From the NCBI GenBank assembly GCA_026874595.1, contig CM049320.1, positions 32,272,214 to 32,336,213 on the forward strand: a stretch of DNA of 64,000 nt, written 5' to 3'. This document shows positions 8,191-64,000 of this stretch, piece by piece. The position numbers and the translations under genes were made by a program. A model generated the notes under the pieces. The model had not been told where the DNA came from, ran no database searches, and worked only from the letters and a program-made list of their open reading frames with translations. Origin of the DNA: Sipunculus nudus. Its lineage: Eukaryota; Annelida; Sipuncula; Golfingiida; Sipunculidae. Numbering within the stretch: position 1 is the stretch's first letter; every line of letters starts with the position of its first letter.

Positions 8191-8296
8191 TTCTGCCATT
8201 AGAACAAGACTATTTATCCCAGGTGTCAAACTTTGGTGAGATTATTCCCTAGGCCACAAATGTTACCGTCTAGTTGGACGAGCCCCAATTGAGTAC

Positions 8297-8445: not shown

Positions 8446-8560
8446 GTAAGAGGTCCTACACCATTACCAATATGGTCAGTGCTTACAAGAACTGGAACCA
8501 CTTAATACATTTATGAAATCACCATTCTACATTTTTTCTTTAACATAGATAATTATTATC

Positions 8561-9528
8561 GTCTCTTACTTCTTCTTCACTCATGCACAAGTCTCAGTCA
8601 TAATATAAAATTCCTAACATCAAGTGTGAAAGAGTCAAACGCAAAATGAGAGAAAGTTTCTTGGTGCTGTAGGAATGTCTACCAGAAATTAAGTCAGCGG
8701 CTGGTCAATCAACATGTGGCAGACCCCTGGCCGATTCCTGATTATGTTAATTAACTTAGTTTATAGATGCGGCTTTGTATATACCTTACATCGGATGAGC
8801 TGGTCGATTAAAATCGTTATATAAGGACTCGTTTCGCAGGAGGTTCTGGGTGAAGCGTGAAAAGATGCCTACGTGCCACTTGAGTTTAATGGCAAAAATT
8901 CCATATTCTTACGATTTCCAATGAACAATAACCCAAAATCATCGAATGTCTTTTCACTTGATGTGTCTGAACTTCTACCCTCCAGCTGCATAGATCTTGC
9001 TTATTTTAACACGAATTCCGAGATACGGTATAAATACCAGCTTGAGATAAAAGCATCTCGCTGTCGGGAAAGAATAATATCCCAGGATCCTATCTGTTAT
9101 TGCAGAGAATGCCGGCGATGCGTTTGGTTTAGCTAGACGTGGCAAAATTCAGATTTGAGTTCAATCTTTTGTGAGTATGTCGTGATTTTGAGATATATAA
9201 GTATACAACCTTTTATTCTCTCCGATGTCGGCCATAACATGGTAAATACAGGTTGTACAGTCTTAACACATCCACATACACGGGTACAAGAGTCTGCCCA
9301 GTCATTGCAGAGAAAACTAGTTTACAGGCGAACATGAGACTGTGGACGAACACCGCACCAAGGACAAAACTGACCGGTGAGCTACAAAAGAAGCATAATA
9401 CAAATAACATCATAATACCTGTATTATCTTATGTATCCACCAGAACCGATATTACTGGTTCATTAACAGATCTCTAATGGAAGTCTCACAGCATATATAA
9501 AGTGTCCTAAATGTATACATAGCCACAT
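8561..9528. other. No gene recognised
   Basis: Single-copy-looking sequence with several overlapping short frames. A plus frame at 8873-9136 has a cysteine-rich end (CYCRECRRC), and a minus frame at 9213-9413 is hydrophobic enough for two membrane helices. Neither has a recognised family, consistent splice sites or a repeat elsewhere in the window. Confidence 0.4.
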
Positions 9529-15182: not shown

Positions 15183-17432
15183 CATAAACATATGTTTATG
15201 GTCAACGAAATCATTCATCCTTTTTACAAATGTTTTTATCTTGGCATCCTAAAATATTCATTGTCACATAGGACAGTTATTTTGCATGATATAAACTGCA
15301 TGTATAAAATTGTTTCCTTTTCACTTAGGCCGAGAAACTGGCAGATTGTCACCTTACTAATGAAAAAACCTTGGTTATTCTACATGACACAGGCATAACG
15401 ATTGGCGACGTTAAATAGCATTTGTATTAACTGCCATGCTTCAGCCTGTGATTTGTTTTTTCGAACACAAACTAACCTATTACATTAAATTGCATAACAT
15501 GTGCTCCTATAGCTGCGATAACTCCATCGTGAGTAAATGTAAAAGTTCCCAAAATACAAGGAATAATATGTGGGATGACCCCGTTCATGAAAAACGTATA
15601 GAATATAATGGTATACTGGCGACTTGGCCATGGGCGAGTCGGTTGGAGAAGTCGAGTGGTAACACTGTCAATTATCATAGGGTGAAACAGTTCGGGTCAT
15701 GCGTCAAGCAGTATTTTTATATTTTTTATGTTTATTATGATACTAGAGTGCACGTATTCTGAATGATGTCATCAATTTTCATATAAAGGCATTTCTTTTG
15801 TAAGCTTTGTGCCTTAATGTTTCGTTGCAAAATACTGTAAGAAATGCCATGTTTTTTCCTCAGTCAGTTATAAGGGTATTTGCAACAGAGACAACAATAG
15901 TTAGCAGTTGAATATGACAGAAGTAGTATTAATAACAGGAATATGAACTCATGCTAAGCGTGATGTTAAATAAATATAGTCTGAGTAAATGGGCGACGAT
16001 TGTACACTTTTCGGGGTAAATACCAATGCTACGACGAAACTAATCAGATAGACTGCTGACTTACTACTTTATTTGGCAGTGGCTGAATACTTCCGATCAT
16101 TTGAATGTCCACTAGAAATAAAATGAAGTAGCTAACATGAAGCGCTATAACTGGGGTGACAACAGTAAATATTTCGGCAATAGTGTTATAAAGATGTATG
16201 TCCACAGAACAGATAAACGTCACCCGGCCTGCACATAATGAGCAGAGAATGGAAATATATTAGAACAACTATATGTATGCAATCGCCAAAAAGATTTATG
16301 GAAGCCAAACAAAGCCCTACCCCCATACCCTTACCCACGTTCAGAACTGGGCAATTAGCGGGTATCGGCTACGGAGTGTGCGAACTTGGGAATAACATAA
16401 ATGTCAAAAATAAATATAAAGTACCCATTTGTGATTTAGTACTATCGTTGTGCTCATAGTTCCTTTCCTTCAATGTACCATAATGGAGATCTAGCACAGA
16501 AAATGGCTTAGGAAACAAAAAAAGCAAAACATTTGAATTCGTTTGCACCATGGTGACCTCAGAAGGTTCAAGTACCAACAATAACCCCTTCCATATAAAA
16601 AATTAAAAATATCATCAAATCGGGGAGAAGGAAGCTTGTTTTTATTACCCTGTATAATAATAGACCCAACGCTGCTACAATGAAGAATGCTGCCGGATTC
16701 CCAGATTACCGTAATTTTTATACAGGATAACCCTTTCAGTCAAATAAAACTGACCTGCCACACAGCTTGGTTGGACAATGCAGTTTATAGAATCTTGAAA
16801 AGTACAATAACAATATAATAAGAATTGCATATTCACATATACTTATGACATGCAAGGTAGTGCACAGTTCGTTCACGAGAAGTACAGGATTAAAGGGAAG
16901 ATCAAATGTAACATGACATACAAAATAGCATTAATACAATGGGCGGGGTGTTCAGGTGATTATTTGAACATTTTAGAACGACTTTAATGAGGAGAAATTT
17001 CTCTGTGAGTCACACAATGTGTTTCACAATGTAGGGATAATAATTTATAAATTTTTCAAATAGGTTTCGAGGTTCGGGTGATATAATTTTTGACATGGAC
17101 ATTGCCAGATCATTGAAACCCTTTATATTTAAAAACTGGATAATGCCAGCTCTCTCGACCTAGATTATATCGAAATACCCAAACATGATTAACAACTAAA
17201 ATTGATTAAATACTACTTTCCTTTCCATGAATTTGTTTGTTTCTCTGTTAAGCTAAAAATTGAAGTGACTTTGTCCATAAGATATACATGTACTTTTGGA
17301 TTAGATCAATGTAATGTGTGTTTTATAATAATGTGTTTTAATCCTAGTAATATAATCCCCCCTGATGCATTATATAGAGCACAGAATAAAATTTCCACTA
17401 TTTGCATTCAGGTATCTTGTTTCTGGGTCACG
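15183..17432. other. 3' flank of methyltransferase A, no other gene
   Basis: Non-coding part of duplication unit A, lying downstream of the minus-strand gene. The frames at 15436-15762, 16238-16459 and 17202-17552 lie in sequence shared with unit B but do not keep a common reading frame there, so I treat them as chance. Confidence 0.6.
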
Positions 17433-17611
17433 TCAGCTGCTGGTTGTTTTGACTGCGACAAGCATGACATTTGTATAAACATCCTTAGCATGACATGGGT
17501 GACCGTCATTCCTACTTTCTCGTTCCACAGCAGCCAGCATATCATCAAGTAAATCTTCTCTCAAATCCTTAGGCACCAGATCCAGTGCAGGATGTATACC
17601 TTTCAATACAG
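17433..17611 (-). CDS. Methyltransferase A exon 4
   Basis: 179 bp to the stop codon. The only usable AG after an in-frame upstream stop is CTGCAG|CT, which restores the phase left by exon 3. It encodes LKGIHPALDLVPKDLREDLL and a tail ending LVAVKTTSS. The copy in unit B has identical length and a similar tail. Confidence 0.75.
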
Positions 17612-18450
17612 CTGCAGTCCAAACATTTTTCATGAACATTCAATTTATACTTCATCGAATATTATCAATATTAAATCAGATTGTTTCATAAATATTTGAA
17701 GTCTCTTCAGATATTAAGAAAAGAAATATAACTGCATGAGTAGATTTAGCATGTTGTTATTTATACTAAAAGGGAAAATGCGTATTTATTTTAAACAATA
17801 TTGTATTTTATGAAAACCAATCTGTTTAAGTAAATTTAACAAATTTTACATGAAAAAAAAACAGTTTAGTATACCTCTGGTCATTGGCATCTCAAGAAGA
17901 AACACTTCGTAATGCATGACGTCAAATCCATGCTTCAGGACCATTTCCTTGAATACATTGTTTTTTGTAAGCCAGGGCACCCCTTTCGCCTTTGACGGGT
18001 CCATATTCGCTATAATCCATTGCGGTATAACATGTTCTAACTCCTGAAATTTCAAGCATAATCTATACAATCTATGGTTCATTTAGTAACAGTGGATGAG
18101 AGTGATAATCAAACGAATGATATATTCATCTTCAAGTGAGATGTAAGTTAATAATGCTAATAATTGTTGAGTGCTGTCATTGCGTTACCTCAACGCTTAT
18201 CCACTTCTTCCATCGAGGGCATCCTATAATCGTTTTCAAAATAGCAGCCAGGTAACGGTAGGGTTGATAAAACAAAGGGAACGATAACATGACCCTTCCA
18301 CCTGGTTCAAGGAGCCAGTTGATGTTATCAAGAGCACATTCCATGTCACGAACCCAATGAAGCACGAAAAAGGAGGTGGCATAGGAAAAGTAAGATTTGT
18401 ACGTGGAGCTGTCTTTTAGGTTACGATCCTGAAATAATAATAATAATTAC

Positions 18451-18483
<33 letters not shown>

Positions 18484-18496
18484 TATAGTCATTTTA

Positions 18497-18548
<52 letters not shown>

Positions 18549-20112
18549 TACGGGAAGAGAGAGAGAGAGAAAGAGAGAGGGATGGATGTGGTTGGAACGC
18601 ATCCATCGAATCTCAGAGCCTAAGCTTTTCTTACAAGGCTGCACGATAAGTCCTCTATTATTTTCATTATTCCATCTACGGAACATCATATACATTTTCT
18701 AGATACTAACAGCTGCTTGTTCACAGAAATGTCAAATACTCCTGCCACATCATTCATACCTAGAATGTAATAACAATATATATAATTTCTTGGGTTGAGA
18801 GTAGTTATATACTAAAATTTGTCGGAGACGCCACAGTATCCTTGGACATGACATACAACCTTGTTCTGAAGCATATATTGACATTTTAATAGGCCATGAT
18901 TACAAGGGTCAAGTTCAGAGTTTTTAAATTGTCCAATAACCTATTTATAATAAAATGTGTATCTTAATTGATTAAATGTTATGGAACATTTCAAAAGTTA
19001 TAGGGTTCATAAAAATTGTATAATTTTAATAATCAGCCAATTTGATCTTGAAGAAAAATGTCAAGGTCGCTAGTTTTCAAACCTGTTCATATTTTTTATA
19101 TAAAAAATGGTGTGTCTTATTTGATTCGCACTACTTCAACAGTTATTTGGTTCACCAAAACTTGTACATTTTTTCACATTAGACCTTAAATACCAAGGTC
19201 AAGTTCAGAAGTTTTCAAGCATATACAAGATCTTAGTGGAATTAATTTGTGTGTGTATTGTTGAGAAGAATATCCAGTACACGAAATTATGAATTTCAGC
19301 ATTATCCTATATTTCGGTAGATTTGACCTTAAAGATCAAAGTCAGTTGTCAGCTGATTTTGTAAAGAATTAACCTTGACTTTCTATTAGCCATCTTTCAA
19401 TTTTCATTTCAGAAAATTACTTCCCTTGAGAAATATTGTTTGTTTTTCATTAAATATTGAAATATTCTAGGTAAAGGCCACTCTCATAATAAGGTCATGG
19501 CCGAAATCATAGCAGACTTCATTATCTGAAACATATCTGTGCATTTGTAGAATTAAGTTGCGCCACAAATACCAAGCGTAGGACAAACCTATCAAAGGTC
19601 ATCAGCGAAAAGGGTTATCGAACCAATCCATTCAGACTTGGAAAAATACCATTTGTTCGTGTCAAGGTCACTATCGTATTGAAGGCAATTACCCCATTGT
19701 AAACAGTTTTCATCCTCTCATTAACATCTATGCACATGTTAAGTTTCATATAGATCAGTGAGCTTTTTTCTGTTGTCTCGTTCGCAAGAAACCGTGCTAA
19801 AACCATAGTATCTCAGGCTTCCTGTCTGGGAATAGACTAATTACCAACCTGTATATCCATTCGTTCAGCCAAAATACGATCGGCCTTGTACCTCTGTCTG
19901 ACGTATTTTATCATGGGTTCGCTCACATCCACTGCGGTGACATGGCACTTAAACTTCTGCTGCAGGTAAGAGCTTGTCTCTCCTGTCCCACAGCCGATAT
20001 CAATCACGTGGTCATCCGGGCTTATATCTGTGATATACCTGTCTATGGCGAATCTTCCGAATTCCTTCTGATGCGTGTTTCCGGCAAGGTAAGCCGTTGG
20101 TGGACGCTGCAT
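17433..20112 (-). CDS. Class I SAM-dependent methyltransferase, four exons (JHAMT-like)
   Basis: Complement of exons 19849-20112, 18189-18428, 17875-18043 and 17433-17611. All three introns have GT..AG ends and phases 0, 0 and 1. Together they give 283 residues, the usual size for the juvenile-hormone-acid-methyltransferase-like group of small-molecule methyltransferases. Seen: motif I VIDIGCGTG at residues 36-44, the ribose-binding aspartate in AVDVSEPM (residue 62), LHWV at 111-114, and LLEPGG at 127-132 on the strand-4/5 side. The substrate is unknown; the JHAMT label is by family resemblance, since molluscs are not known for juvenile hormone. The start was chosen at the ATG of 20112. An ATG eight codons upstream (20136) is in frame but its codons are not kept in copy B. 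An additional upstream exon cannot be excluded. A paralogue lies at 45200-47702. Confidence 0.8.
17875..18043 (-). CDS. Methyltransferase A exon 3
   Basis: 169 bp; acceptor TTTCAG|GAG, donor AGAG|GTATAC, phase 1 at the 3' end. It encodes the C-terminal region around KAKGVPWLTKNN and KHGFDVMHYEVF. The same length and splice sites occur in the paralogue at 45642-45810. Confidence 0.78.
18189..18428 (-). CDS. Methyltransferase A exon 2
   Basis: Exactly 80 codons, phase 0 at both ends. The acceptor is TTTCAG|GAT, whose pyrimidine tract is formed by the TTA microsatellite. The donor is GAG|GTAACG. It encodes SYATSFFVLHWV and the LLEPGGRVML strand typical of methyltransferase motifs after the SAM site, then a segment ending RWKKWISVE. 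Confidence 0.8.
18431..18580. repeat. TAA and GA microsatellites at the exon 2 acceptor
   Basis: Long (TAA)n runs from about 18431 to 18548, interrupted once by attatagtcattttaaa, followed by a (GA)n run to about 18579. On the gene strand the TTA repeat supplies the polypyrimidine-like tract directly before the exon 2 acceptor, so its length could influence splicing. Confidence 0.9.
19849..20112 (-). CDS. Methyltransferase A exon 1 (SAM-binding motif I)
   Basis: 88 codons, ending MDIQ with donor CAG|GTTGGT. It encodes the N-terminal helix region and the first two strands of the Rossmann-like fold with VIDIGCGTG and the acidic residue of AVDVSEPM. Intron 1 is about 1.4 kb and holds the long TAA and GA runs next to exon 2. 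Confidence 0.8.
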
Positions 20113-20500
20113 GGCTCTGGAACTACATGGACACAACAGAGTTTAGACACGTAACACCATTCTTGGAATTCTTTGTCTTTTATGTATATTATAATCATAA
20201 TCAAGTAGACATCATTCATACATGTGACCTTATATATGATCACGGTTTATTACATAAAATGGGAAATGATTGCCCATAAATCTTAAATCAATGTGATGCC
20301 ACCTTCTAACCTATGAGCAATTTAAAGTTTGGTGAATAAAACGAGTGATTTTCAAGAGCATTTGTTCTTTTGATTTTTTCGAGGGTTTAATGAACATGGA
20401 TGGCCATCAAACAAAATTTCCGACCTGAAAAAAAAAGAACACAAGGATGACAATTGTTTTGCAACAAGAGAGGCCAACTTGGTTAATGTATGTTTTTTTC

Positions 20501-43399: not shown

Positions 43400-45199
43400 C
43401 ATATAAAACATATGTTTATGGTCAACGAAATCATTTCTGTGACCTGCAACACATTTTTGAAACTGTATTTATCTTGGCTTCCTAAAATATTCAGTGTAAC
43501 ATAAGACATTTTTTTAACATGGTATAAAATTATTTCTAAAATTGATTCCTTGCCACTTACCCCGAGGACCTGCCAGAGTGCCCACTAACAAATAAAAAAA
43601 TCTTGGTTATTCTACATCACACAGGCAAAACGATCAGTGACGTTATTATGCATTTGTACTGTCTGCGATGCTTTGGCAAGTGATTTACTTTTTCTTACAC
43701 AAACCCACCTATCACAATAAATAGCATTACCTGTGCTTCTATACCTGCAATAACCAGTAATGAAAAAGTTCCAAGGGTATAACCCCTTCAAGAAACACTT
43801 CCAGCAAATAATGGTATATCAGATTAGACTTGTAGACTGGACATAGACGAGTTGCTTGGAAATGTCGAGTGGCTACACTGTCAAATATCATAGGGTGAAA
43901 CATTTTGCGTCATGCGTCAAAGCAGTACTTTTATATTTTGTTATTTTTATACCAGACGGTACGTATTCTGAATGAAATCATCAATTATTGAAAGGTATTT
44001 CTTTTAATGCAATTGTAAACGGGGTGGCTGTGTTTGTTAGCTTTGTGCCTGTATGTTTCGTTCCATAATTCTGTAAGAATTACCATGTTTCTTTCCTTGT
44101 CAGTTATAAGGGTATTTGCAACAGATACAACACTAGTAAGCAGTAGATTATTACAAAATTAGTATCCATAACAGGAACATGAACTTATGCTAAGTGTGAT
44201 GTTAAACAAATATAATTCGAGTAAATGGGTCACGACTATACACTTTTGGGGATAATTAAATACCAATGCTATGACGCCCTTGCTCAAATAAACTTTGCAG
44301 TGAGTGGATATCGGCTACGGGAGTGCGACTTTGGGAATAAAGTCAAGGTCAAAGATAAATATCCAGTAGAAATTTGTGATCTTGGACTATTGCTGTGCTC
44401 ATATTCCTTTTTTTCTTTAATTTGCCATAATGGAGATCTTACAGACAGAAAATGGCATAGGAAAGAAAAGGGTAAAATATTTGGAATCATTTGCACCATG
44501 GTGACCTAAGTAGGTCTACCTACCAAAAAATAACCCCTTCCAACTATACAATTGAAAATCTCATCAAATCAAGGAACAGAACCAGTTTTTTATCCTGTAT
44601 ATTACCATCTGTATCGATACAACCCTGCTACAATGAACATTCCGGCGGATTTATATTAATGTTTATACAGGATAACCCTTTCAGTCAAATATATTTGATC
44701 TGCAACACAGCTCAATTGGAGAAAGCAGTTTTTAAAATCTTGTAAAGTACAATACCAATGTCATAAAAATTGCATATTCACTTGTAATTATGGCATACAT
44801 GTTAGTGCACAGTGCGTTCACGATAAGTACATGATTAACGGGAAAATAAAATGTAAAATTAACGGGAAATAAAATGTAACATAAGACATACAAAATAGCA
44901 TTAAGGGGGGAGGGGTCCTGGTGATTATTTGATCATTTTAGAACGACACTTAATGAGTAAAAATTTCTCTTATTGTGTTTCACAATATTGAGTTTGGACA
45001 TACCAAAACATGATTAACAACTAAAATCGGTTACATTATATTTTCCTGCACTTTTGGATAATAGCATTTATAGATCAATGTAATATTTTTCGCAAATACA
45101 ATGTGTTAATCCTTGCAAAATAATCTCTCTTGGTGCATATAAAGAGCACAGAACAAAACTTCCACCATTTGCATTCAGGTATCTCGTCTCTGGATCAGG

Positions 45200-46221
45200 T
45201 CAGTGACTGGTTGTTTTAACGGCGACAAGCATGTCACATCTGAGGACTTCCTTAGCTTTACATGGTAAACCGTCAGTCATACTTTCTTGTTCCACATCGT
45301 ACATCATATCATAAAGTAAATCTTCTCTCATTTCCTCAGGTACCAGATCGAGTGCAGGATGGAAACCTTTCACTACAGCTGCAGTGGAAAAATTTTTCAT
45401 AAACATTCAATTTATACATTATCAAATATTATCAATGTCAGACTGCTTCATAAATATTGGAAAAGCGGTCAGAAGTTGAGACAAGAAATATAGCTGCTTG
45501 GGCACGTTTAACCTGTTGTGATTATACTGAATAGAAAAAAATGCGTATTTATTTAAAACAATATTCTATTTTATGAAAACCAATCTGTTTATGTAAATTT
45601 AACACAATTTTACATGAAAAAAATAAAACAGTCTAGCATACCTCTGGTCATTGGGAACTCATGAAAGACCACTTTGTAATGCATGACGTCAAATCCATGC
45701 CTTAAGACAATTTCCTTGAATACATTATGTTCAGTCAGCCAGGGGACCCCTTTTGCCTTTGACGGCTCAATACTCGCTAAAACCCATGGCGGTAATACAT
45801 GTTCTAATTTCTGAAATTTCAAGCATAATCTATACAGAATATGGTTCATTTATTTACACTGGATGAGAGTGATAATCAAACGAATATCTTATTATTCCGC
45901 CTGTGAGACGTAAGTTTTATTAGATGTCGCTAATAATACTTGAGGACTGTAATAACGTTACCTCGAAGCTTATCCATTTCTTCCAACGAGGGCAACCAAT
46001 AATCGTTTTCATTATAGCTGGATAGTAACGGTAGGGCTGATGATATAAAGGGAACAGTAACATCGCCCTTCCACCTGGTTTAAGGAGCCAGTTGATGTTA
46101 TCAAGAGCACATTCCATGTCACGAACCAATTGAAGCGCGTAAAATGATGTGGCATAGGAAAAGTAAGATTTGTACGTGGACCTGTCTTGAAGGTTACGAT
46201 CCTGAAAAAATATAGAAATAT

Positions 46222-46261
<40 letters not shown>

Positions 46262-47702
46262 AAAGAGAGAGAGAAAGAGAAATGTCTTTGTACGTACCAA
46301 TAATAATAACAATAATAATAATATACAGGAAGGGAAAGAGAGAGAGCGCATGAGAGAGGGATGTGGTAGGAACGCACCCATCGAATCTCAGAGCCAATGC
46401 TTTTCTTGCGATGCTGCAAGATAAGTCCTCTTTCCTTTTCATTATTCCACCTACGGAACATCATATACATTTTCTAGACACTAACATCTGCTTGTTTCAC
46501 AGTATTGTCAAATACTCAAACCAGAGCATGGATTTGATTGACAACATAAATTAACTCTTGGGTTAAGAGTATTTTTAAAAATAGAATTTGTGGCATCGGA
46601 GACGCCACAGTGTCCTCGCCCAAGACATATCTCCTTGTTCTGAAGCATATATTGACATTTTACCAGGTCAGGATCACAAGAGTCAAGTTCAACAGCTTTT
46701 TTTAACTTGTCCTAACTTATTTTTAAATTGTATTATTAGGCTTATATGACCTTGAGACCCTCTTCATAATGATGGTAGAAAAATTGGTGGGTTTAATTTG
46801 ATTCGCACTACTTCAACAGAAATTTTGGTTACCCAAAAATTGTACATTTTCTCAAATTAGGCCTTGAATACCAAGTTCAAGTTCAGAAGTTTTCAAGCAT
46901 ATTCGAGATCTAAGTGGAAATAATTTGCGTGTGTATTTTTTTAGAAGAACATGCAGTACATCGAAATAATGAGCTTCACCATTATCCTTGATATCATCAG
47001 ATTTTACCTTGAAGATCAAAGTCATTTGTCAGATTCATTTTTTACTAAATAGGGGATATTCAAGGTCAAGACCACTCTCATAACGTCATGTCCCAAATCT
47101 AAACAGACTTTCCTTTTTCTGGCACATATCTGTAAATTTGTAGAATAAAGTTGCACAAGCCAACTCATGCGCAAGATAAACCTATCAAAAGTCATCATTC
47201 AACCGGGTTCTCGAACCTATTCATTCAGAGTTGCTCGTGAAAATTACGATTTGTGGGTGTCAAGGTCACTATCATATTGAAGGCCATGACCCCATTTCAA
47301 ATAATCCTCTCATCCACATCTAAGCGCATGTCAAGTTTGTTATAGATCCGTGATATCTTTTTTGTTATCTCGTTCGCAAAAAAAACTGTGCTTAAACCAT
47401 AGTACCTCAGGCTTCCTGTCTGGAATAGAACTAATCACCAACCTGGGTATCCATTCGTTCAGCCAAAATACGATCGATCTCGTCCTTCTGCTTGACGTAT
47501 TTGATCATTGGTTCGCTCACACCCACTGCCGTGAGATGGCAGTTAAACTTCTGCTGCAGGTAAAAGCTTGTTTCTCCTGTCCCACAGCCGATATCAATCA
47601 CGTGATCATCCGGGCTTATATTTGTGACATACCTGTCAATGGTGGATCTTCCGTGTTCCTTCTGAAACGTGTTCCCGGCAGGTAAGCTGGAGGACGCTGC
47701 AT
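45200..47702 (-). pseudogene. Methyltransferase paralogue B, probably decaying
   Basis: Complement of regions 47443-47702, 45962-46201, 45642-45810 and 45200-45378. Exons 2-4 match copy A base for base in length (240, 169, 179 bp) with the same GT..AG sites and phases. Exon 1 is 260 bp against 264: one codon is missing after CCTCCA, and one further base is missing in the following CTTACCT stretch. The ATG used in copy A is therefore out of frame with motif I, and the motif-I frame has an upstream TAG and no ATG before it. VIDIGCGTG survives, but the acidic residue of AVDVSEPM is glycine and LHWV has become LQLV. An alternative upstream exon could rescue the frame, but the lost aspartate would still weaken SAM binding. 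Confidence 0.75.
46215..46335. repeat. GA and AAT microsatellites in paralogue B intron 1
   Basis: A (GA)n run from about 46223 to 46282, then an ATAATA run and a second GA stretch. It sits directly upstream of the exon 2 acceptor on the gene strand, where it forms a CT-rich tract, at the same place as the TAA/GA runs of copy A. Confidence 0.9.
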
Positions 47703-48275
47703 GGCTCTGGAGCTACATGGACACAACAGGGTTTAGACACAATACACCAATGCTGGAATTTCTTGTCTTTTATGTATATTATAATCATAGTCAGGTAGAC
47801 ATTATTCATATTTATTATATATGGTCACAGTTTTATCGCATAAAATGGTAAATGATTGCCCATAAATCATAAGTCAAGGTAATGCCACCTTGTCACCTAT
47901 GATCAATTTAAACATTGGTTAATAAAACGAGTGATTTTTAAGAGAAGTTTTTTTTTTATTATTATTTCAAGAGTTTATTGAACATGGAGGGCCATTGAAC
48001 AAAATTTCCCACTTTCAAAAAGAACACAAGACTGACAATTGTTTTGCAAAAAGAGACGCAACTTGAAGAATATATGTTTTCTTTCTTTTTAAGAAGTGGC
48101 AAAATTAATGTGATATAATATTTTTTATTTTACTTAAGTGCTATGATATTTGTATAACTTTATGGAATAAATCTTCTTAAAACATGTGTATTCAAACTGT
48201 GCTCATTCAGTAAAAAATACAGAATAAAGAACATTCATTACCATGCATTATTGAGATAACTCCTCTATCCTTAAC
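47703..48275. other. 5' flank of paralogue B
   Basis: Shared with copy A to about 48085, then AT-rich sequence up to the LINE target site. No promoter element or upstream coding exon could be identified in either copy. Confidence 0.4.
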
Positions 48276-49094: not shown

Positions 49095-50128
49095 CTGAGA
49101 TCATGAATCTTAAACTGAGATTCATTTCTGCCAGCATTTAATTTTAGAACTAAAATGATAAGCGGGACTTTGTTATATGTGGTTGAAGGTGACCATGCAT
49201 GTCAGCTCACATACATGCAAAGCGCATGCTTGTCAGTCGAGCTTCACGACTCATTGTACACTTGTGTATATATTTTGTGATGTGGGGCTGTATTTATGTA
49301 TTTTATCCAGATCATCTTTTCAACAATTAATTTATTGTTACATTGTTTTTGTTACACAGATTTGATGAAACTAACCCTGACCACTTTTACTGTTTTTTTG
49401 TTACTGGTTAGGGGATAATAGGTGAGCTGTATCCATCTTTCAAACCGAGTCTTCAATGTTTTATTTAATTATTAATTTATTAATTTTTGGTCCTTTTGTT
49501 CAGTTGAACATATTTAATATCTAATTTCAAATCACACAGCCTTTTTGATATTAGTCAGAGAATTTACCATCTCTTAATTTAACAGGTCCCATACTTTTGT
49601 TTTTGATATTCACACAAAATGTTAAGTCACCCTTACTTCCATTAATTGGTGATTAGGACATTTGTTCAGATTGAGATATTTAGATTGTTTATTCCAGCTG
49701 CTTAAGTTACATTAATTGTAGGTGCAGGATTTTACAAGAACTAAATTGATGAATTTTTCAGAGTTGAGACAAGTGCATGAGCTTTACCTTTTGTAATATA
49801 TCAGCCACACCATACGCTGACTTTGAGAGGTAGAACCTACTGTGCACTGAAAGCAGGAAGCGTTTCCAGATATGTTTTTTTTTTTCATCTCTTAAGTGTA
49901 GTGTCCTTTTACGTACCCTTATTGTTTTGTATTCATGTAATACTTTGCTGGTATGTTCCATATTACATATGAATGTTTTTTATGTCATGTTGACATGTTG
50001 TTTCTGTGACATAATGAGAAGATTGTGTTCAATTGTTCTTTCAGTTTAATGTAGGGGTCATGAATAATGTTTCAGGTTTCAAATTAGATGGCCATTTGAA
50101 GTTAATAAATTCCAAGTAAGCAGTATTT
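49095..50128 (+). other. LINE inter-ORF region
   Basis: AT-rich, no coding-like frame except short chance ones; bounded by the ORF1 remnant and the ORF2 start. It may contain the lost C-terminus of ORF1. Confidence 0.5.
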
Positions 50129-51865
50129 ATGGGAGACACCTGTAAGATTGCTTCTGTAAATGTGAGAGGTTTGGGTAGCCATAGAAAGAGAAGGGAATTA
50201 TTTTATTGGCTAAACGGGAAACCGTTTGATTTAGATTTTCTGCAGGAAACTCACAGCAACCCAGAATGTGAAAGCAGATGGAAGGCTGGACGGGGTCATC
50301 ATATTTTTTTAGTCATGGTAGCAATAAAGCTAGAGGAGTCTGTATATTAGTGAAAAACAAAACTGGAATTCAAATCAAAGACAGTGTAAAAGATGAATAT
50401 GGGAGATTTTTATTTCTTATATTCTAATTTCTTAATGTATAAGCAATAGAAGATGACAAACTTATTATTGCCGGAGATTTTAATGTAGTTATAGACTGAC
50501 AACTTGATAAAGATGGAGGAAATGAACGTACACATGATAAAGTGAAACAGATTCTGAGACAGTGGATGGAATTAGCCCAGTTAATAGAAATTTGGAGAGA
50601 ACAACATCCATACACTTTTAAATACACCTGGAAAAGATAAAACCCCAAACCTGTGTATTGTCGCCTGGATTATTTTTAATTAGCTATTGCTTTAACAGTT
50701 ACATCTCTCGCTCAGATGTCAAGCATGGTTACAAGACTGATCATTTGTTGATATCCATTAGTTTAAGTGACCAAAAAAGGGGACCTGGATATTGGAAGCT
50801 TAACTGTTCTTTATAAGAAGATAAAAATTATATTAAAATTATAAATGAATGTATTAAATCAACAGTTCAGATTAATAAAGAAGCAGATCCAGGTCTTTTG
50901 TGGAATACACTCAAATGTAAGATAAGAGGTGAAAGTATAGGATGCATCTAGGAAAAAGGATCGTATAGTAATAAATTATTAAATCTAGAAAGAGAATTGC
51001 AGGAAACACATTATCATTATAATGTAAAAAAGTCATGAAGATAAATCAAATGGGAAACTGCACAAAACAATCATAGGATATTTACTGAGGAAAAAACTAA
51101 GGGTGCTGTTGTAAGATGTCGAACAAAATGGTATGCAAAAGGTAATAAACAAAAAAAATACTTTCTACAATTAGAAAAAAGGAACTATGATCAGAAATAT
51201 ATCCTTAAATTGAAAGACCAGAGTGGTAAAATACTTTGAAATACAAGAGACATTTAATATGAACAATTTAGATTTAATGAAGTATTATATTCATCAGCAG
51301 GCCCTGATGAAAATTATAGATAAGAATTTAATACCCAGCCTCATTTAAACTCACTTACAGAAGACGAAAAGCACTTATCTGATAAAGATTTTACCTCAAC
51401 TGAATTTGTTACTACACTTAAATCTTTAAAGAATAACCAAACACCTGGGCCAGATGAATTCCCTGCTGAATTTTATGAAATGTTTTGGGAAGATCTAAAA
51501 GAATATTACATAAATGCTTTTGCTTACTCTTTTAATACTGGTTCTTTACCTTTGACTATGCGGCAGGTCATTCTTTGTTTGATACCTAAGAAAGGAAAGC
51601 TTGAACACTTCTAAAAAATTGACGCCCTCTTCATTGTTGAATACAGACTATACCATAATTGCAAAAACCATGGCTAGTACACTTAAATCTATCCTACCCC
51701 GTACCATAAATTCGGACCAAACAAGTTTCATTAAAAATAGATATATTTGGGAAAATATAATAAAAATCACATATATATATTTGTACGGTGGCTGATTTAG
51801 GACACAGAAAAAAAAATATTTATCTCGTGATCTCGAGATAACATCTCGAGATCTCGACATAGAAT

Positions 51866-52147
51866 TTCGCAAAAAAAAAAAATTTTAGGAAGCAAAAAAA
51901 AAATTTTAGGAAGCAAAAAAAAAAAATTTTAGGAAGCAAAAAAAAAATTTTAGGAAGCAAAAAAAAAAATTTTAGGAAGCAAAAAAAATTTTTTAGGAAG
52001 CAAAAAAAAAAATTTAGAAAGCAAAAAAAAAAATTTTAGGAAGCAAAAAAAAAAATTTTAGGAAGCAAAAAAAATTTTTTAGCAAGCAAAAAAAAAAAAA
52101 TTTAGAAAGCAAAAAAAAAAAATTTTTAGGAAGCAAAAAAAAATTAT
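51866..52147. repeat. Left-arm tandem array of the fold-back element
   Basis: About 13 units of 20-22 bp of the form aaaaaaaaattttaggaagc, with A-run length varying between units and occasional ttagaaagc or ttagcaagc variants. Confidence 0.95.
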
Positions 52148-52159
52148 CTTTCGAGATCT

Positions 52160-53340
52160 CCAGAAAAAATGTCACACTTGTACGAACCATTCAAAGCTGA
52201 ATTGACATAAAGGGGACATTATACGTTAAGAGTGCTTACTATTGCAATTATAAAACAAAGACCATGTATACTGTGTTTAACTGAACCGTAATACAATATA
52301 ATTAATTTAAAATCAATCAAGTTTGTATATCCCCTGAGATAAGGCGAGTTGAAGAAAAGTTCAATATAAATTCAATATTTAATATTCATATCCGTAAGGA
52401 AGATGTCAAAGCCTAAAGAATCTGAAACATTCTACCTGAACGGCGGATTCGGAGCCATGTCTGTTAAATCACTCAAATAGAAATGTTTAGGTCTGCATGC
52501 ATGCATTGTGGGTACCTTATTATTTTAAGAATCCAAACAAATATGAGCTTCTTATAGAAACACGCTTTTTGTACAATTTCTTTCAGCTTTTGTTTTATTG
52601 AAATGGTGTGTCGTTTTATGGAACATGTATTAGACCATCATAAATTAAAATATGCTAAAACTGATTACTGTGTTTTCGGGTAGGTATGCTAGGGGGGGGG
52701 GGGTCGGGGAGGAGCGTTGCTTCAGCCCCTAAAGCCCAAGTCTTGATCCACTATAGCTCTTACTATAGCTCAGATTAATTTAATCAACCTATCTTCATAA
52801 ATGTTTTATATTCATAAATAAACGGTTTAAAATTTCAATCATCTCTCATCATGATTTTTCTTCAGCAAAATGCTCTGCTTTGGTCTTAAAGTCGCTATTC
52901 ACCTGCCTTATTTATAGAATCTTTGTCAAGACTCTGCATATATATATTAAAGAAGTGAAAGTGATCATAAACATAATCTAGGTAAACATAATCTATTAAT
53001 CTTTCATGAAAATGAGCCAATGCCATGGGTAAAGGCGGTGTCTTTGTCTATATCCACGTTTATTTATAACATGGGTCGGGGGGGTGCAAAAATTGCCACC
53101 GATCGTAATAGAAAGACGTCCTGCAGAAACATCTGGCTTCATTTCAGAGATTACAGATTTCTGTAAATGACAAATACTGCATTGCTTCACATGCTCTTAC
53201 GAATATAAACTAGTGATCTTTCAATAACTCGGTTACATGTTTTTATCTGTAACACTTGCTCAAGTGGCTTGTATACAAGTAGCCTTTAGATAATATGTTT
53301 ATACGTCAAAGTGACGTTATAAGACCCATTCCAAGCTGGG
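52160..53340. other. Centre of the fold-back element
   Basis: AT-rich loop with a G-run near 52691-52702. The minus frame at 52996-53190 is the only one of note; it has two cysteines and a histidine in CSICHL but is too short to assign. Confidence 0.5.
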
Positions 53341-53344
53341 GTTT

Positions 53345-53630
53345 CTTCCTAAATTTTTTTTTTGCTTCCTAATTTTTTTTTTTGCTTCCTAAAATTTTTT
53401 TTTTTGCTTCCTAAAAATTTTTATTTTGCTTCATAAAATTTTTTTTTATGCTTCCTAAATTTTTTTTTTTGCTTCCTAAAATTTTTTTTTTGCTTCCTAA
53501 AAATTTTTTTTTTTGCTTCATAAAATTTTATTTTATGCCTTCTAAATTTTTTTTTTTTGCTCCCAAAAATTTTTTTTTTTGCTTCCTAAAAATTTTTTTT
53601 TGGCTTCCTAAAATTTTTTTTTTGCGAAAT
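53345..53630. repeat. Right-arm tandem array of the fold-back element
   Basis: About 13 units of the reverse complement, gcttcctaaaattttttttt, with variants (gcttcataaa, gccttctaaa, gctcccaaaa) not all mirrored in the left arm, so the two arms have drifted or expanded separately. Confidence 0.95.
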
Positions 53631-55718
53631 TCTATGTCGAGATCTCGAGATGTTATCTCGAGATCACGAGATAAATATTTTTTTTTTCTGTGTCCTAAAT
53701 CAGCCACCGTATATTTGCTTATGCCAGAAAACATTAAAATAAACAGCTACTTCATATAAATTGATTTTGAAAAAGCTTTCGACATTTTAGAATGGTCTCG
53801 AATTCAGAATACTTTAAATCTTTTTCAATTTGGATTATTCTTTTAAATAATGGGTTAATATTATTAATACTAATATAAGCAGTTATGTTATAAAAAGAGG
53901 ATGGGCAACTAAGTATTTCACAATTTCTCGTGGTGTAAGACAAGGTTGCCCCTTATCCACATCTGAAATATTAGCATGTAAATCAGGAATAATCCAGCTA
54001 TTAAGGGAGCATATATTGGAGATAAAAAATATAAATTAATACAATATGCAGATGATACTGCTTTAACGCTGACAGGGGGTTACCAATCTGTTAAAGAAGC
54101 TATTAAAACATTTGCACATTTCGAGAAAATATCAGGACCTAAGGTATATTAAGATAAAACCGTAGTAATGCCAATACATGATATAATATATGAAGAGGAA
54201 AATATAGCAAAAAAAACAGGACTCTAGTGGTGCTTAGAACCGGTCAAAGTACTTGGCATATACATCCGTCCAGACTGGAGAATAATAAAGGACATAAATT
54301 ACAAAGAGATCCTAAGATCTATCATAAAAGCTCATATTTTGTCATTATTAACTTATGCCCTTCAAGTTTTATCTCATCCATCAGCAGTATATATTAAAGA
54401 AATTGAATCATTACTTTACAGATTTATTTGAGGTAAACAAGACAGAATTAAGAGAACAACGCTAGTTTCAAACAGAAAGAGGAGGGCTTGGTATGATACA
54501 TATAAAATCAAAAATGGAAGCTATAAAAATTTATTGGGTTAAACGATTTTTATCAGGACACATAGGAGAAGGATAGAGAAATTTGGTAAATCAGCAGTTC
54601 AAGGGAATAGGTCAGTTAATATTTAAATGTAATTTAGAAAGCACAGAAACAAAATACTCTGACAAAATATGTCAGCCATTTTGGAAAGAAGTGTAAATAT
54701 ATGGTGTAAATATAACTTTGATAAAGTAAATATGTGTCATGATATTTTATCACGAATATTATTCTTCAACTCTTTTGTTAAAATATATAGAGATACAGTA
54801 TATGATAAACTTTTAAATAATGCTTGTATAAAAAAGATCAGTGATATTATTAAAACAATTAATCATAAATAAGTATTTATATCTTACGATGAGTTTATAA
54901 ATATAACAAATGCTAAAATTAAGAAAATGCAGTATATCAGTTTAGTAGATGCAATTCCCACTATTTAGAAAAAAAAATAAAAATATGTGAACCTAGTACT
55001 ATATTATGTAAAACGAAATTAGATAAAGTAATGGACATGAAGAAAATTACAATCATTATATATAATGAACTTCTACTCAATATTGATACAAAACCTACAA
55101 AGATGATTGAAAAATGGAACAACGACATGGAATGTGAATGGGAAGAAACAATATTTGAGGCTTTTAATGATATTTAGAAAACAACCATATCAGAAACACT
55201 AAGAATCTTTCATTTCCACCTTATGCATAGATGTACAGCCCTTAACCTATTCTTATTTAAAATCGGAAAGAAAGATAGTATTCTTTTTAAAGAATCTCTT
55301 AAAAAGATTCTTTTTAAGAATCTCTCTCTTTCTAAAAATGAGAAGGAATCCTTATTGCATCTCTTCTTTCATTGCAGGGTAACCCAGAAAATAATGTCAG
55401 AGATTAAAAGCTGGCTTTAAGTTTAAATTTTGTGATAGATGATGCTAATCTTTTTAAAAACTGTGTCATATTCAATAAAATTGTAAATATTCCACGAAAC
55501 ATTGATTTTATATTCTTGACCCTCTGGATTAACTGTACAAAGTTCATAATGGTTTTGTATTTCTATGTTTGTATGCGAGTATTTTTTTGTTGATGTGATG
55601 TATTTTTTAATGTCAAGTGAATGTACTCTTTAGTAGCCGTAGTTTGCTTTTCATGTTTGCTATACATTGTATGTGTATTTTGTTTGTTTATAATAATAAA
55701 AGAAAACTAAAAGTGACT

Positions 55719-57143: not shown

Positions 57144-58692
57144 ACTAATCATGATCCGTCTGGAATTTTATTTAATGCCGAAAGAACATTTTTGTTTTCA
57201 AAAGAAGAGCTGGATTGATATATCTTATTATTGGTCGATGCAAGATATCCGATAAAATTACTAAAGGCTCGGACGTAAAACAACACGATCATCGATGACT
57301 TTGATCAGACTGGATACTTTTTTATGACTCTTACGAGATCTTTATAAAGATAGGTACCAGTTTTACAGAACTACGCCTGACTAAACCACAAAATTTGTTA
57401 TAAATTTCATATATTTAGTACAAAATATTCTGTCCGAGGGAATTCCCATATAAAGAAAATGTACGAATCCTCTGAAGGTATTTAATAATTGCTTAATATT
57501 AACTTAATCACAAGATATGTTATACCCATACATTTACTGAGGGGTTTCGTATAACGCCACAAGGCCTCGTATGATATGCTATGATTCCTTAGATTTATAT
57601 GAAAAAAGATAATCCCTACATCAGTTTACTTAGTGTGATGGCTTTTGCCATATTAGCCAAGTTATGTAATAACCAATAACTTTCCAAAGACCTTTCTGTG
57701 ATCAGTTAAAATTGTACTTGTAGTTGATGAAGGAAGCCAGTTCCTCTTTATTTGTATTGAATTATGCCAAACTTAAAATATATTCGGGATTATAATAGGT
57801 ACTGGATAAAGTTACTTATAACATGAAAAGGAAGCTCACTGTAGGTAATGGTTGTTGTCATGTCCAGTTTGCCCATATTGCTTGGTATCATGACGTAAAA
57901 CCAGCCACACGCCTCCACATTAGACAGGAAACATGTCTTTAATGACAAGGCAGGTTTTTAATCTTTAAAGTTTGATATTATAATTCGATCCTCCTCTGTT
58001 TAAATAACGATTCCCGATACTTGTGTCGATCATCGCGTGCGCTGACGAGATTAAAACGCTCGACTAAATGTAAATGTGTTTACCTACACAACCAAATGTT
58101 ATATCTGTGCACCTTCTATATGCAAAGATGTGAAAGTATCGAATATGACATCGCCGTTATGAATATGCTCTATTTATTAACTGCCATTGTAAAAAAGGGG
58201 GGAAAAATAAACGATCACCACATGTTGAATTTGCGTTAAACCTTTTGTAAATTGACTGTCAAGCGTTCATTTAATCGTTCGTTTTCACTCCTGCCAGCGG
58301 CCGAGGGCTGCTTCAGGTGACGGAACAAATATAGGTACATAAGTACCCAAAGTAGTAACCACGATTACAGTGACGACACTCCGTGTCATTGGTTCATTTC
58401 AACTCATTTGCATATCCAGGACGGTACTTTTCCAAACATTGCCGACTAGTTACCTCGTATACAGGCGGGCAATTAATGAGGTCCTACACAAAATGCAAAT
58501 TGTCGGTGTGTAAGACAATTTCGAACGATCTTCAAATAATTCTTAGAAGATTTGCGCTGGAGGCCACGTTCATAGCCAGAAAGGAGCTGCTTTTTCCTCT
58601 GGTGGAACATTTTTTTAAATTCATGTGCTTATTATAGAGTATAAATCCCGCGTTTTCAGCGTTCTTGTGTTAGCTGGAATGAAACGAAACTA

Positions 58693-58763
<71 letters not shown>

Positions 58764-58967
58764 CATATATATATGCATTCCTTTTTTGGTAAATTGCATT
58801 TCGAGAGGAATCACTGTTGTATATTATGGTTTGCCTATTTTATAATTAAATATATTTGAACATCAACATTTGCATGCGGCTTTACTGGACCTAAAAATAG
58901 CAGAACTCTTTTAAAACAACAAATACATAAGGAATAAGTGATAGGACTTAATTCAGATTTCCTGTTT
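57144..58967. other. Copy B counterpart of 1-1790
   Basis: Matches 1-1790 with a 6-bp deletion near 58226, a 25-bp deletion near 58651 (microhomology gcg at the edges) and the expanded TA run. No gene recognised. Confidence 0.6.
58698..58776. repeat. (TA)n microsatellite, expanded in copy B
   Basis: About 38 TA units with tgta/taca interruptions where copy A (about 1585-1597) has only some five or six. Confidence 0.95.
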
Positions 58968-59510
58968 AAGAGAATAGTTTTTTACTGATTCTGTGGCCTA
59001 TTAGATACATTATTTAAAGGGAGACCAATTTGTAAGGTATTAGCGCTAAACAAAAGGCCATATGAAAGCAAAGCTAAATTCAAGGCGTTTAGCATTCTAC
59101 ATAATATGCTGTCTTTACTACGTAGAACAGCGGAAGCGCAGAACAAATCACCTGAGACTAAACAGCTCTTTATTATTTACTCCTCTACTGTAAGGGCTGG
59201 TGCCAACAACATATGTGTTCCATATTTATTGCCATCTGCAATAGAAAGTTATCAAATCGACCTAAAGAGCCTGGGAAGGCAGCGTTCACTCTGTGGTCTG
59301 TGTGCGCTAGGATCTCTGCTTCACAAATGTTCGTATGACCACAAAGCGAACAGAATGTTATTTGTGGCAAATCAACAGGGGCTATGAACTTCATTTTGTA
59401 TATATCTTGGGGAAAATGTATTCCCATGTTTAAAGCAAGGTTCCTCAATAAAAAAAATAGTGAGAGAACGTTAAATATCTCTACCCTCGATCCAAATGCA
59501 AATGAACTTT
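58968..59510. other. Copy-B-specific 543-bp block
   Basis: Replaces the 2.3-kb block of copy A. It carries frames on both strands (59106-59387 plus; 59185-59448 minus, the latter with CSLCGHTNIC). No family recognised and no transposon ends found. Confidence 0.6.
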
Positions 59511-60842
59511 TCGAATGGTTTCACATAAGTAAGACATTCGTTTCATAAAATGTATTTGTAGTCAGGTCAATTGGAGGCTATTGACTTGAACAATGAAAAT
59601 TTATATTCTGTGTTACAAATGTCTCTTTTATTGTGTGAAGCAGTCTTACATGTGTCTGTGTGGTGCTAGCATTGTCCACTGCCGTGGGAGACGGGCGAGC
59701 TGGCCCGGCCCACGCAGGGGGTCTGACGTGTAAACACAGCGCTCATACCAATCTGGAACTTTTTAAGGTGGGTCGCGCTGGATGAGTTTTTTTTACACAC
59801 TGATAATGGCAATAGAGCAAGAGTGTGTACTTACATACGCAGTAATGGAATATGTGTCAAAGACATTTCAAATTAATATTAAACTAATATTGTAGGTTAT
59901 TTCTATGCAATTAGATTCGGAACTTTCGGCCCGAGGTTTTTTACTAAATAAACTTATGTTCTGTTCTGTTCTATTTACCTTTTATTAGAAAACAAACGTT
60001 CCCCTTATTTTCAGAATATACTTTTTAACATTGTTTCTTAAGAACACATTAAAATTAAAGTGCTCTTTGATTCATTTCTTTAAGTCGACACGCATATGCA
60101 TTTATTCTTATCAGTGTAAAATTAGACTAATTTTATATATATATTTATACTTTTGTTAAAATCACCTTGTAGGAAAATTACAGTTTCATGATATAATTGA
60201 ATCCTGCTTTATTCTTTATGACTAGACGTTTTACAAATAATAAGAAAAATATGCCAAGTGCTATTAACAAGTTAAATTTTTACTCGCTGGGTCATTACAA
60301 TGAGTTTCCTTGCCATTGTATGTTATTTAAGAAAACTTTTTTATTTTTCGCAGTCTCTGAGCTCGTGTGTTAGTTTATATCATTAGGATTTCATGTAGCT
60401 TATAAAATGTTTTTCTTTTCTTGTTATATTTTTTTTTATAAGTCTCTCTCACTAATTAACTAGCAGTGACAATCACCGATTTCTTTTAACACGTCTTAAT
60501 AAATTTCTTCAAATTACGTTTTTGCTGTATTTGCTCGTGTGTGGGTTTTTATATATCATTAGAACTTTAGGTAGCTGATAAGCTAATTTTTTTGTTGTCA
60601 TTTACAGTTCCCCATCACTAAATAAATGCCAGTGACACTCACCGAGTTCTTCAAACCCGTCTCAATAAATTTGTAAGTTTTTATTTTCTTTCTTAAAAGT
60701 ATTAGGCAAAATACTCTTGACCCTATTTGAACGAAACATTGTACATGCGTGTCTTATGACCCATTAAATTTAATGCGGATACAAAAAAAGGGAGCAGGTC
60801 TAGTAGGATTCCTTGTCTTTACCTGGTGTAAGCTCTTCAGAG
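59511..60842. other. Copy B counterpart of 4119-5449
   Basis: Near-identical to copy A; no gene recognised. Confidence 0.5.
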
Positions 60843-62252
60843 CAGAGTTGGTTCTTAAAGTACTCGTACTAATAGTACTCGTACTTATGAGTTCTTTTTT
60901 GAGTACTAAGTACTCGTACTCGAGTAATTTTAAAAAAACGCCAAAGTACTCGTACTTTTACTCAAGTACATTGAAAGTACTCGGTACTCATATGAGTAAA
61001 TCACAAGTACTTTGGGTATTTCATATATCATTAAAATTGCTAAATACCTTTAATCTCAATTTATAATATTAATAATAGTATTATAGTATATTATAGTAAA
61101 CCATATCTGTTACTATAACTGAAACTATTATAGCATTTTCGCATCGATAACTACTTCTATTACTATAACATGGCTTCTATTTCTTATACTATTATATCTA
61201 TTTAATAAAAAAATATAAATAAATTGAACTATTTTATTATAAATACATTCATACAATTCATGTCTACATGTGTACAGTATTATATATGTCCAGCAAGGTA
61301 AGAACAACCTGTTCATCATAACATAAACTCACCAGTGCTCCGGGGCCTCGACTAACCATGCATGAATTGATTTATATATGAGACTAAATGTGATTGTAGG
61401 TTTAGCAGACTTTCAGTGGGAATTGCAGTCTTTGATGAGCTCAATACACAGTCTGTGGCACAACTAAGACTCAACTGTTGACTGTCAACTAATTAACCCA
61501 GAGAAAGCTGTGATTATCAGACCAAACACCCCTTAGCTACTACAAGATAGGCTGCGGCATCACATTCTACTATAGGCTGACAATAACTTGTCCAACATAC
61601 TGTGTAAGCACACAAAGGACTTCTCCAATGTTCAATGACCAAGCCTACTTAGTGAATTAACAAAGAGAACCAGGAGTTAACCTTAAGCCAAAGTCTTCTG
61701 TCCAGTGCCCAATGAACCATGAAAGCACCCAGCATTATCTAATTCCACTACACTGGGCCCATTTCTGTGATCTATCAACCTAATCAAAATAACACTCTAT
61801 TCATCAGATGTGTAAGCCAAGGATAGTAATAGAAAAGTAATAGCTATTATTCTATTACTTATGGTACAATTACCATTACTAGTTCAAATTTCTTTTCTAT
61901 CAGTAGTAATAATACTTTTACTAACTTTGAAAACCTGTAATACTCTATTTATATTATGTATTACTATCGCCTCATTCCTGGTTGCTGTGCCACTGAGGTA
62001 ACATGTTAATACTCATAAATTATAACACATGATGAATGACATAGTCGGTCTGTCAGATATGTTGTTTTAATCTATTTTCACATATACCGGTTGCCATTAA
62101 ATATCTTTATTAGGCTACAGCCACATATTATTCATAAGTCGTTATTATATAAATAACAACATATGTTTATTATTATTACTGTTATCATTATTGTTATCTT
62201 ATAGAAAGCTGATTCCAATGAAAGTGTGCTGATACACAGAGGAAGTTGGGGA

Positions 62253-62324
62253 TCCCTGTTAGCTCAGTGGTAGAGCAGACGACCGGCAATCGGAGGGTCA
62301 TGGGTTCGATTCCCATACGGGGTG
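62253..62324 (+). tRNA. tRNA-like SINE head 1 (GGC, Ala-like)
   Basis: 72 nt that fold as a cloverleaf. The acceptor tccctgt pairs with acggggt (first pair T-T), the D-arm is gctc..gagc, and the anticodon loop ccggcaa puts GGC at the anticodon. The T-arm is a perfect atggg..cccat. Box A tagctcagtgg and box B ggttcgattcc match consensus exactly. Loop position 33 is C instead of the universal T, and the anticodon stem has only three good pairs, so decoding function is unlikely. It is best read as the SINE promoter. Confidence 0.55.
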
Positions 62325-62557
62325 ATCCGATTTTTTCTGTGTATTCCTGTTCTATATCTCCATGAGATGGACCAGAATGGCCATTCAACATCTTTCTATA
62401 TAATATTTGATGCACACCATAAAAGGCCATCAGTTTATTACTGCTACATGCAAAGTCGCCGTGTCGACACATGTAGTATGTATAATACCAGTCACAGTAG
62501 TGACGTCACTTCGCTGGTTCCAATGAAAGTGTGCTGATACACAGAGGAAGTTGGGGA

Positions 62558-62629
62558 TCCCTGTTAGCTCAGTGGTAGAGCAGACGACCGGCAATCGGAG
62601 AGTCATGGGTTTGATTCCCATAAGGGGTG
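62558..62629 (+). tRNA. tRNA-like SINE head 2, box B damaged
   Basis: Second copy, 305 bp downstream. The fold is as in head 1 but with one more acceptor mismatch (aaggggt), and box B is changed to ggtttgattcc (C to T at the invariant position). Probably a passive part of the dimeric SINE. Confidence 0.5.
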
Positions 62630-63231
62630 ATCCGATTTTTTCTGTGTATTCCTGTTCCATATCATTATTGTTATCGTTGTTATTATTATATGATCACAAT
62701 TGGTTACGCATGGATAAATGCTTTTTACAATGTCAGTGCGATGTCATTTAACAATATAACTTTTATATGTTAACTTTAAAATTTTAATATGCATAATACA
62801 ACATTAAGTAAATTGCATATCCTGTCCGTGCTTAGAAATATATTTTTGAGAAACCAGGAGACCAGATGTTTCTTCAATGCAAACCGACTGTTATAATAAG
62901 TTTCATATATTTAAAATGTATATGACCTGTTTACATGCCCTAGAGTTTGCATTTCATCTCAGTATTTTGATTAAGCGTAACACATCATTGTATTTATTTT
63001 TATTTTGTCCTGGGTTTTCATTAATAAAAATATATTTAACTTTATGAGTATATATTAAATTTGATAACCTGATTAAACAAGTTTTTTTACAAAAAGTACT
63101 CATTAAGTACTCATGAGTACATTTCGAGTACGCGGAACTCGTACTCGAGTATTTTTGTAAAAGTGCAAAAGTACTTTTAAAGTACTCAGTACTCTGTTCG
63201 AGTACTTAAAAAGTACGCGGACCCACCTCTG

Positions 63232-64000
63232 CTTCAGGGTGTTACCATAGTATTGTCAATACGATATTTAAGAAGACCCGATAAACTTTCATCTATATCA
63301 TATTTAAAGATAACCTTAACAAGAAACACGCGTTTTGAACACGATGGTGAGGAAATAATTCACAAAATGGCTGAATTGAACTGTCAGAACGATTTATTAT
63401 TCATGAAGTTGTCTGTTTTGCTAAAGGTTGTTACTGATACATTCATATGAAGTGGAAGGTTTGTTTACATAGGTAAACCATGACAAAACAAATTACAAAG
63501 AGAGGACGGTGTTTTCTGTGGCTAACGTGCACCGTTTCAGGTTAATTTAAATTTACATGATAAAAAGTACCAATTTGAGAGGTACTTTCAAAATGGTAGT
63601 GTACGGTAGATTACACTCATTCTCTTAGGCGGTCAATATTGAGCATTACTAACAATAATTTCAAGGAAGAATTTTGTTCGTCGCGCATTTGAATCTTTAT
63701 CCGATTTCTCCGTTAAAACACAAGATTTGATTCTGATCGGCAAAATGGTTCAAGTAAGTCTGCCACATAGTTTGGATAAACATTTAAGATGATTAAACTT
63801 ATTTATGGAAAAAACTATAATTCTCAAGGCGCAAGCTTTAATAGCGAGACAGTTTAGTCCGCTTTTCTGTCGCCCCATAACAATGTAAGAGGTCCTACAC
63901 CATTTCCAATATCGTCAGTGCTTACAAGAACTGGAACCGCTTTATACATTTATGAAATCCCCATTCTACATTTATTCTTCACCATAGTTTATTATTATCG
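63232..64000. other. Copy B counterpart of 7352-8560
   Basis: Matches copy A apart from the loss of the SINE-bearing 436 bp: gaaggcg-type sequence at about 63829 joins directly to caagctttaatagcgagac. No gene recognised; the homology runs off the window edge. Confidence 0.6.

Follow-up and report, generated by a model that had tools for sequence, protein, structure and literature searches.

A probable IS3EU-type fold-back element with tandem-repeat arms, inserted in a long interspersed nuclear element of Sipunculus nudus

Fold-back elements apparently belong for the most part to the Mutator superfamily, with exceptions (PMC4079207), and often stay unclassified for want of a known transposase, Tetris being one such case. 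Tetris and Tm1, both Mutator-type, combine a noncoding middle with arms of tandem subrepeats in variable number (excerpts of PMC4079207 and PMC3169594). Galileo, a P-superfamily element of Drosophila, shares the long, internally repetitive terminal inverted repeats (TIRs) and has autonomous and nonautonomous forms; its tandem repeats carry additional transposase-binding sites, according to a portion of PMC3688188. Families of the IS3EU superfamily, of which Repbase held 45 in May 2022, have TA..TA ends and usually 6-bp target duplications (parts of PMC10045372), and those of rust fungi have TIRs of >30 bp, 6-bp duplications, and TAYGG..CCRTA ends (parts of PMC12730594). Here, we describe a 1,928-bp fold-back element that interrupts a long interspersed nuclear element (LINE) in Sipunculus nudus, within a stretch of 64,000 nucleotides that we call the window (assembly GCA_026874595.1, contig CM049320.1, referred to below as C15, positions 32,272,214 to 32,336,213, forward strand). 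We consider it a nonautonomous fold-back of the IS3EU superfamily that is moved in trans by the integrase-type (rva_4, DDE-like) transposase of a longer relative that this genome also holds, and we put the probability of this reading at about 0.82.

The element occupies window positions 51784 to 53711 with TATTTG on either side, a match of flanks expected by chance at a frequency of ~0.001 at the local composition. Its parts and its host are as follows.

49700 to 55400, plus strand: host, a degraded L1-like LINE with Exo_endo_phos and then RVT_1, the latter split by the element; outer limits approximate.
51778 to 51783, no strand: left target-site duplication TATTTG, its length set at 6 bp from other copies.
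51784 to 51870, plus strand: left tip block of 87 bp, with TACGGTGGCTGATTTAGGACACAG, an A-run, and then a palindromic block rich in ATCTCG/CTCGAG.
51829 to 51853, plus strand: perfect 11-bp hairpin with an AAC loop (two 10-bp palindromes ATCTCGAGAT), a candidate binding site.
51871 to 52134, plus strand: left array of 12 units, 21 to 24 bp each, A-run plus T-run plus AGGAAGC.
52135 to 53363, no strand: middle; no Pfam match and a longest stop-to-stop frame of 71 amino acids (tested over 52140 to 53340 and 52146 to 53345).
53364 to 53623, minus strand: right array of 12 units, 20 to 23 bp each, with variants unlike those on the left.
53624 to 53711, minus strand: right tip block of 88 bp, equal to the left one apart from one extra A.
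53641 to 53665, minus strand: mirror copy of the 25-nucleotide palindromic hairpin.
53712 to 53717, no strand: right target-site duplication TATTTG.

Long inverted arms with internal tandem subrepeats enclose a noncoding middle, so the element is structurally a fold-back with a 6-bp target duplication, as a preliminary description of this DNA had it. The same description took the window copy to be nonautonomous, which agrees with the short frames of the middle and with the absence there of any Pfam match at an expectation (E) value of up to 1 in six frames, stops read as X. Taken alone, the window copy has a direct repeat of 8 bp (TATATTTG) because the element terminates in TA; the duplication length is set at 6 bp because, among the other copies, 30 of 37 are exact at 6 bp, one at 7 bp, and none at 8 bp.

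Those copies come from a large family. A search of the 1.43-Gb genome for the 24-base tip, allowing up to 2 mismatches, gave 971 hits (506 + 465; positions listed for 100), against 0 for the reversed-pattern control. A whole-element search gave 996 candidates, 40 of them scored, and the 40 loci extracted are those that match the query best, a sample biased to young, similar copies. Both termini (up to 4 substitutions) were present in 37 of the 40, with one missing in L051, L052, and L055, and the 7-bp duplication is that of L043. Randomly re-paired flanks yielded a mean of 0.8 exact 6-bp duplications and a maximum of 4 in 1,000 shuffles, versus the 30 observed. Duplicated sites have G/C at the outer positions in 42 of 60 cases (both strands counted) and A/T inside, in flanks of 33% G+C content. 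The middles of 36 elements, the window copy included (2 without anchors were left out), lie 0 to 2.7% from their majority consensus, the window copy at 0.9%, and this low divergence points to recent movement. The suspicion that the window element belongs to a family is borne out by these counts; other copies with the same boundaries exist. Convergent tips stand ~0.33 kb to 6.7 kb apart among those listed, and size variants of the family probably exist.

The host adds an independent view of the insertion. Exo_endo_phos is matched to the left of the element (E = 7.9e-6), and the right side alone gives RVT_1 at 22.5 bits, below the cut-off. The element plus one duplication measures 1934 bp, no multiple of 3; once this is removed, a 96-residue peptide across the junction matches RVT_1 with an E value of 1.6e-8, and the reading frame resumes as had been claimed, although further frameshifts and stops persist in the LINE. 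Five PDB sequences, described as LINE-1 ORF2 or as RNA-directed DNA polymerase, match residues 4 to 91 of the same peptide at E values from 3e-6 to 1.6e-5, and the junction is free of gaps in both alignments shown (two of the five). There is also a natural empty site: a duplicate of the locus ~55 kb upstream on C15 carries the LINE without the element, with 2937 of 2993 aligned bases identical (98.1%) and a 2-base difference in an AT run beside the site. The insertion is absent from this 98%-identical paralogue or allele, and the family is mobile, as target duplications and the empty site attest.

The preliminary description could not assign a superfamily. This has been overtaken, since the tips and the 6-bp duplications match the published signature of IS3EU. 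The window copy ends in TACGG..CCGTA with TIRs of >30 bp, the form published for the rust-fungus families, and the extracted copies share these ends except for the variants TACGATGG, TCACCGTA, and CCACCATA, found once each. The likeness to IS3EU/GingerRoot thus covers tips, TIR length, and duplication length, and it may extend to a putative integrase-like transposase in the probable partner described below. The difference lies in the ~350-bp arms of tandem 22-bp units, of which the available passages on IS3EU make no mention.

For the domain PF24764 (rva_4), the genome yields 158 candidates (150 scored) and 40 matches, and 14 control genomes yield 0. One match, at C16:36634807-36635265 (E = 4e-20), lies in a stop-free frame of 330 amino acids and starts 996 bp inward of a tip at C16:36633811 (L057), whose tip block is identical to that of the window in 82 of 89 alignment columns. 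An array of 17 units, many with ACGAAGC, belongs to this element, which sits within the middle of another family copy; an ATG lies 633 bp from the tip, and its frame continues, in phase, into the rva_4 match. A second match, at C1:74069110 (E = 5.6e-20, one TAA), lies ~0.5 kb past a like array, the same spacing as on C16. The C16 element is probably an autonomous partner with like arms, judging from its sequence. Of the autonomous relative that the preliminary description envisaged, the like tip block, the array, and the in-frame integrase-core match have thus been located; the element is seen from its left end only.

Several observations weigh against the IS3EU reading. In seven of the 37 two-ended copies, the flanks do not form an exact duplication of 6 bp; one of these has 7 bp, and the other six (L016, L022, L027, L037, L041, and L049) have no exact repeat of 3 to 10 bp. 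Like arms are shown beside only 2 of the 40 listed rva_4 matches, and among the 12 matches on C1 to C4 that fall in the range of the exact tips listed, C1:74069110 alone lies within 10 kb of one of those tips, which indicates that the genome also holds rva_4 genes belonging to other families. The first 129 residues of the C16 frame have no Pfam match over the cut-off, and the C16 element is known from its left arm to its rva_4 match. PF24764 is taken here to be an integrase core and the putative core of IS3EU. Finally, mobility is read from sequence.

If the IS3EU reading is correct, the element would move by cut-and-paste in trans through a C16-type transposase. The transposase would bind both the tips and the palindromic block behind them, excise the element, and join the 3' ends of the element to the two target strands at points separated by 6 bp, with a preference for S-W-W-W-W-S; gap repair would then yield the 6-bp duplication. 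The tandem units may provide extra binding or spacing sequence, gained and lost as whole units, separately in each arm.

The arms themselves differ in detail from the preliminary description. Its perfect terminus of 24 bp is longer, since the arms of the window copy are identical over the first 33 bases counted from the tip and the whole tip blocks differ by the one A only. Its ~13 units of 20 bp per arm are instead 12 units of ~22 bp (20 to 24) with the pattern A-run + TTTTAGGAAGC. It was right that the unit variants differ between the arms; their order is not collinear (permutation P = 0.63). The 25-nucleotide hairpin reads GATCTCGAGAT-AAC-mirror, the 40-nucleotide stretch around it has a z score of -5.1, with 0 of 200 shuffles equally stable, and all 4 occurrences of ATCTCGAGAT within the 64 kb fall inside the element; this hairpin may be a binding site. 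Each arm of the window copy contains a 4-unit higher-order repeat (lag 4: P = 0.011 left, P = 0.0042 right, among 12 tests). Across 38 elements, a fuzzy counter found 6 to 14 units on the left and 8 to 17 on the right, with no significant correlation between the arms (Spearman 0.25, P = 0.14). Since unit numbers are uncorrelated, units are not collinear, and 4-unit repeats occur, the arms seem to expand and contract by whole units, each independently. Stronger constraint on the tip block than on the units is only tentatively indicated: mismatches number 0 of 87 in the tip block versus 18 of 255 in the units (P = 0.009), but the unit register is uncertain. Derivation of the unit from the tip is suggestive only: the comparison of TTTAGGACACAG-A-run with TTTAGGAAGC-A-run scores 18, a value that one of the 32 other A-run sites in the window also reaches. 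Two further ideas were rejected. In a wedge model, both arrays are predicted to be straighter than 300 of 300 shuffles, contrary to curvature from phased A-runs, and tip-block divergence of 0.0255 within versus 0.0257 between copies (permutation P = 0.31) gives no sign of gene conversion between the arms of one copy.

What the arrays do is a separate matter. They could be satellite-like passengers without a part in transposition, the outer tip block alone being needed, and we give this a little under even odds. The variable, uncorrelated unit numbers and the higher-order repeats fit such a role, and the array-less relative L093 (C6:17397848) makes it plausible: it carries the tip block, and the inner 15-mer common to both, TTGTACGAACCATTC, lies 121 bp from its second tip versus 394 bp in the window element, a shortening by 273 bp, or about one array (264 bp), in one relative compared by position. 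On the other hand, arrays stand on both sides in 38 of 38 elements measured, a sample selected for similarity to the query, and the probable autonomous C16 element carries one too. It is possible, although we hold it tentatively, that the fold-back architecture had one more origin within IS3EU, in nonautonomous and autonomous elements alike, with the 22-bp arrays serving an integrase-type transposase as multivalent docking sites, a role also proposed for Galileo, and with the array-less relative as the state before array growth. Such docking is plausible because of the extra transposase-binding sites in the tandem repeats of Galileo.

A Mutator-like element (MULE) or a P-type fold-back akin to Galileo, from the superfamilies in which such elements usually fall, would share the long TIRs with tandem subrepeats seen in Tetris, Tm1, and Galileo. 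We regard this as very unlikely. Exact duplications of 8, 9, or 10 bp occur in 0 of 37 copies, whereas MULE duplications measure 8 to 11 bp, with 8 to 10 bp in Tetris and most often 9 bp in Tm1 (PMC4079207 and PMC3169594). The tips fit IS3EU, and the frame between like tips matches an integrase core, whereas Galileo has different tips and a THAP-domain P-type transposase. The target duplication of Galileo is 7 bp, which differs from the 6 bp here. The reading of the fold-back as an inverted duplication of local origin, or as an assembly artefact, has next to no chance of being right, for although the surroundings hold large direct duplications or unmerged haplotypes, it is refuted by the 971 tips, the target duplications at unrelated sites, and the empty site.

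Other relatives vary in content. A 3.3-kb relative (L098/L099, C17:31692817-31696128) has IS3EU-like tips at both ends, and a subterminal block in which many ATCTCGAGAT-like words take the place of A/T units, but neither a target duplication nor a Pfam match over the cut-off (DUF3021 falls just below). At two places (C2:83395070-83401774 and C3:28595611-28602343), convergent tips lie 6.7 kb from each other; we set these pairs aside as partner on present evidence, 1 kb from the centre of one (L100) being unlike the element and no rva_4 match being listed at either place. TACGGTGGCTGATTTA followed immediately by a second tip was seen in 5 of 8 pattern hits, including places on C4, C6, and C7. 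At C13:51547938 (L030; duplication GATTTA), the outer tip continues beyond the element, so at least one such case is a nested insertion. A lone left arm at C13:25779534 (L066, L086) stands beside RING/B-box frames (TRIM-like, by eye), with no mate tip in 20 kb. The 19-mer tip and the palindromic block had no copies in the viral_contigs or genome_contigs collections, the unit string had none in viral_contigs, and a 17-mer had 7 hits in viral_contigs, none with a mate terminus.

Elsewhere in the window, positions 1 to 8561 and 57144 to 64000 form a direct duplication (~92 to 98% identity, ~57-kb period), which extends past both window ends (C15:32252214-32346213) and reflects tandem duplication or unmerged haplotypes. 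An older duplication pairs 15186 to 20500 with 43406 to 48085 (75 to 84% identical), the latter copy holding a weak Methyltransf_23 (methyltransferase) match below the cut-off. Rfam places tRNA genes at 62253 to 62324 and 62558 to 62629, within a 151-bp near-identical repeat; ARAGORN predicts only the first, as tRNA-Ala (ggc).

Literature searches found no IS3EU fold-back, Repbase and Dfam lying outside that comparison, and the four strings for tip, block, and unit had no match in the literature text searched. This suggests that the fold-back arms are a new variant within the known IS3EU superfamily, subject to the content of Repbase and Dfam. Should the IS3EU assignment prove true, an integrase-type superfamily has acquired fold-back arms by convergent evolution. 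With tips, duplication length, an empty site, and a probable transposase partner in one genome, the function of tandem-repeat arms becomes directly testable.

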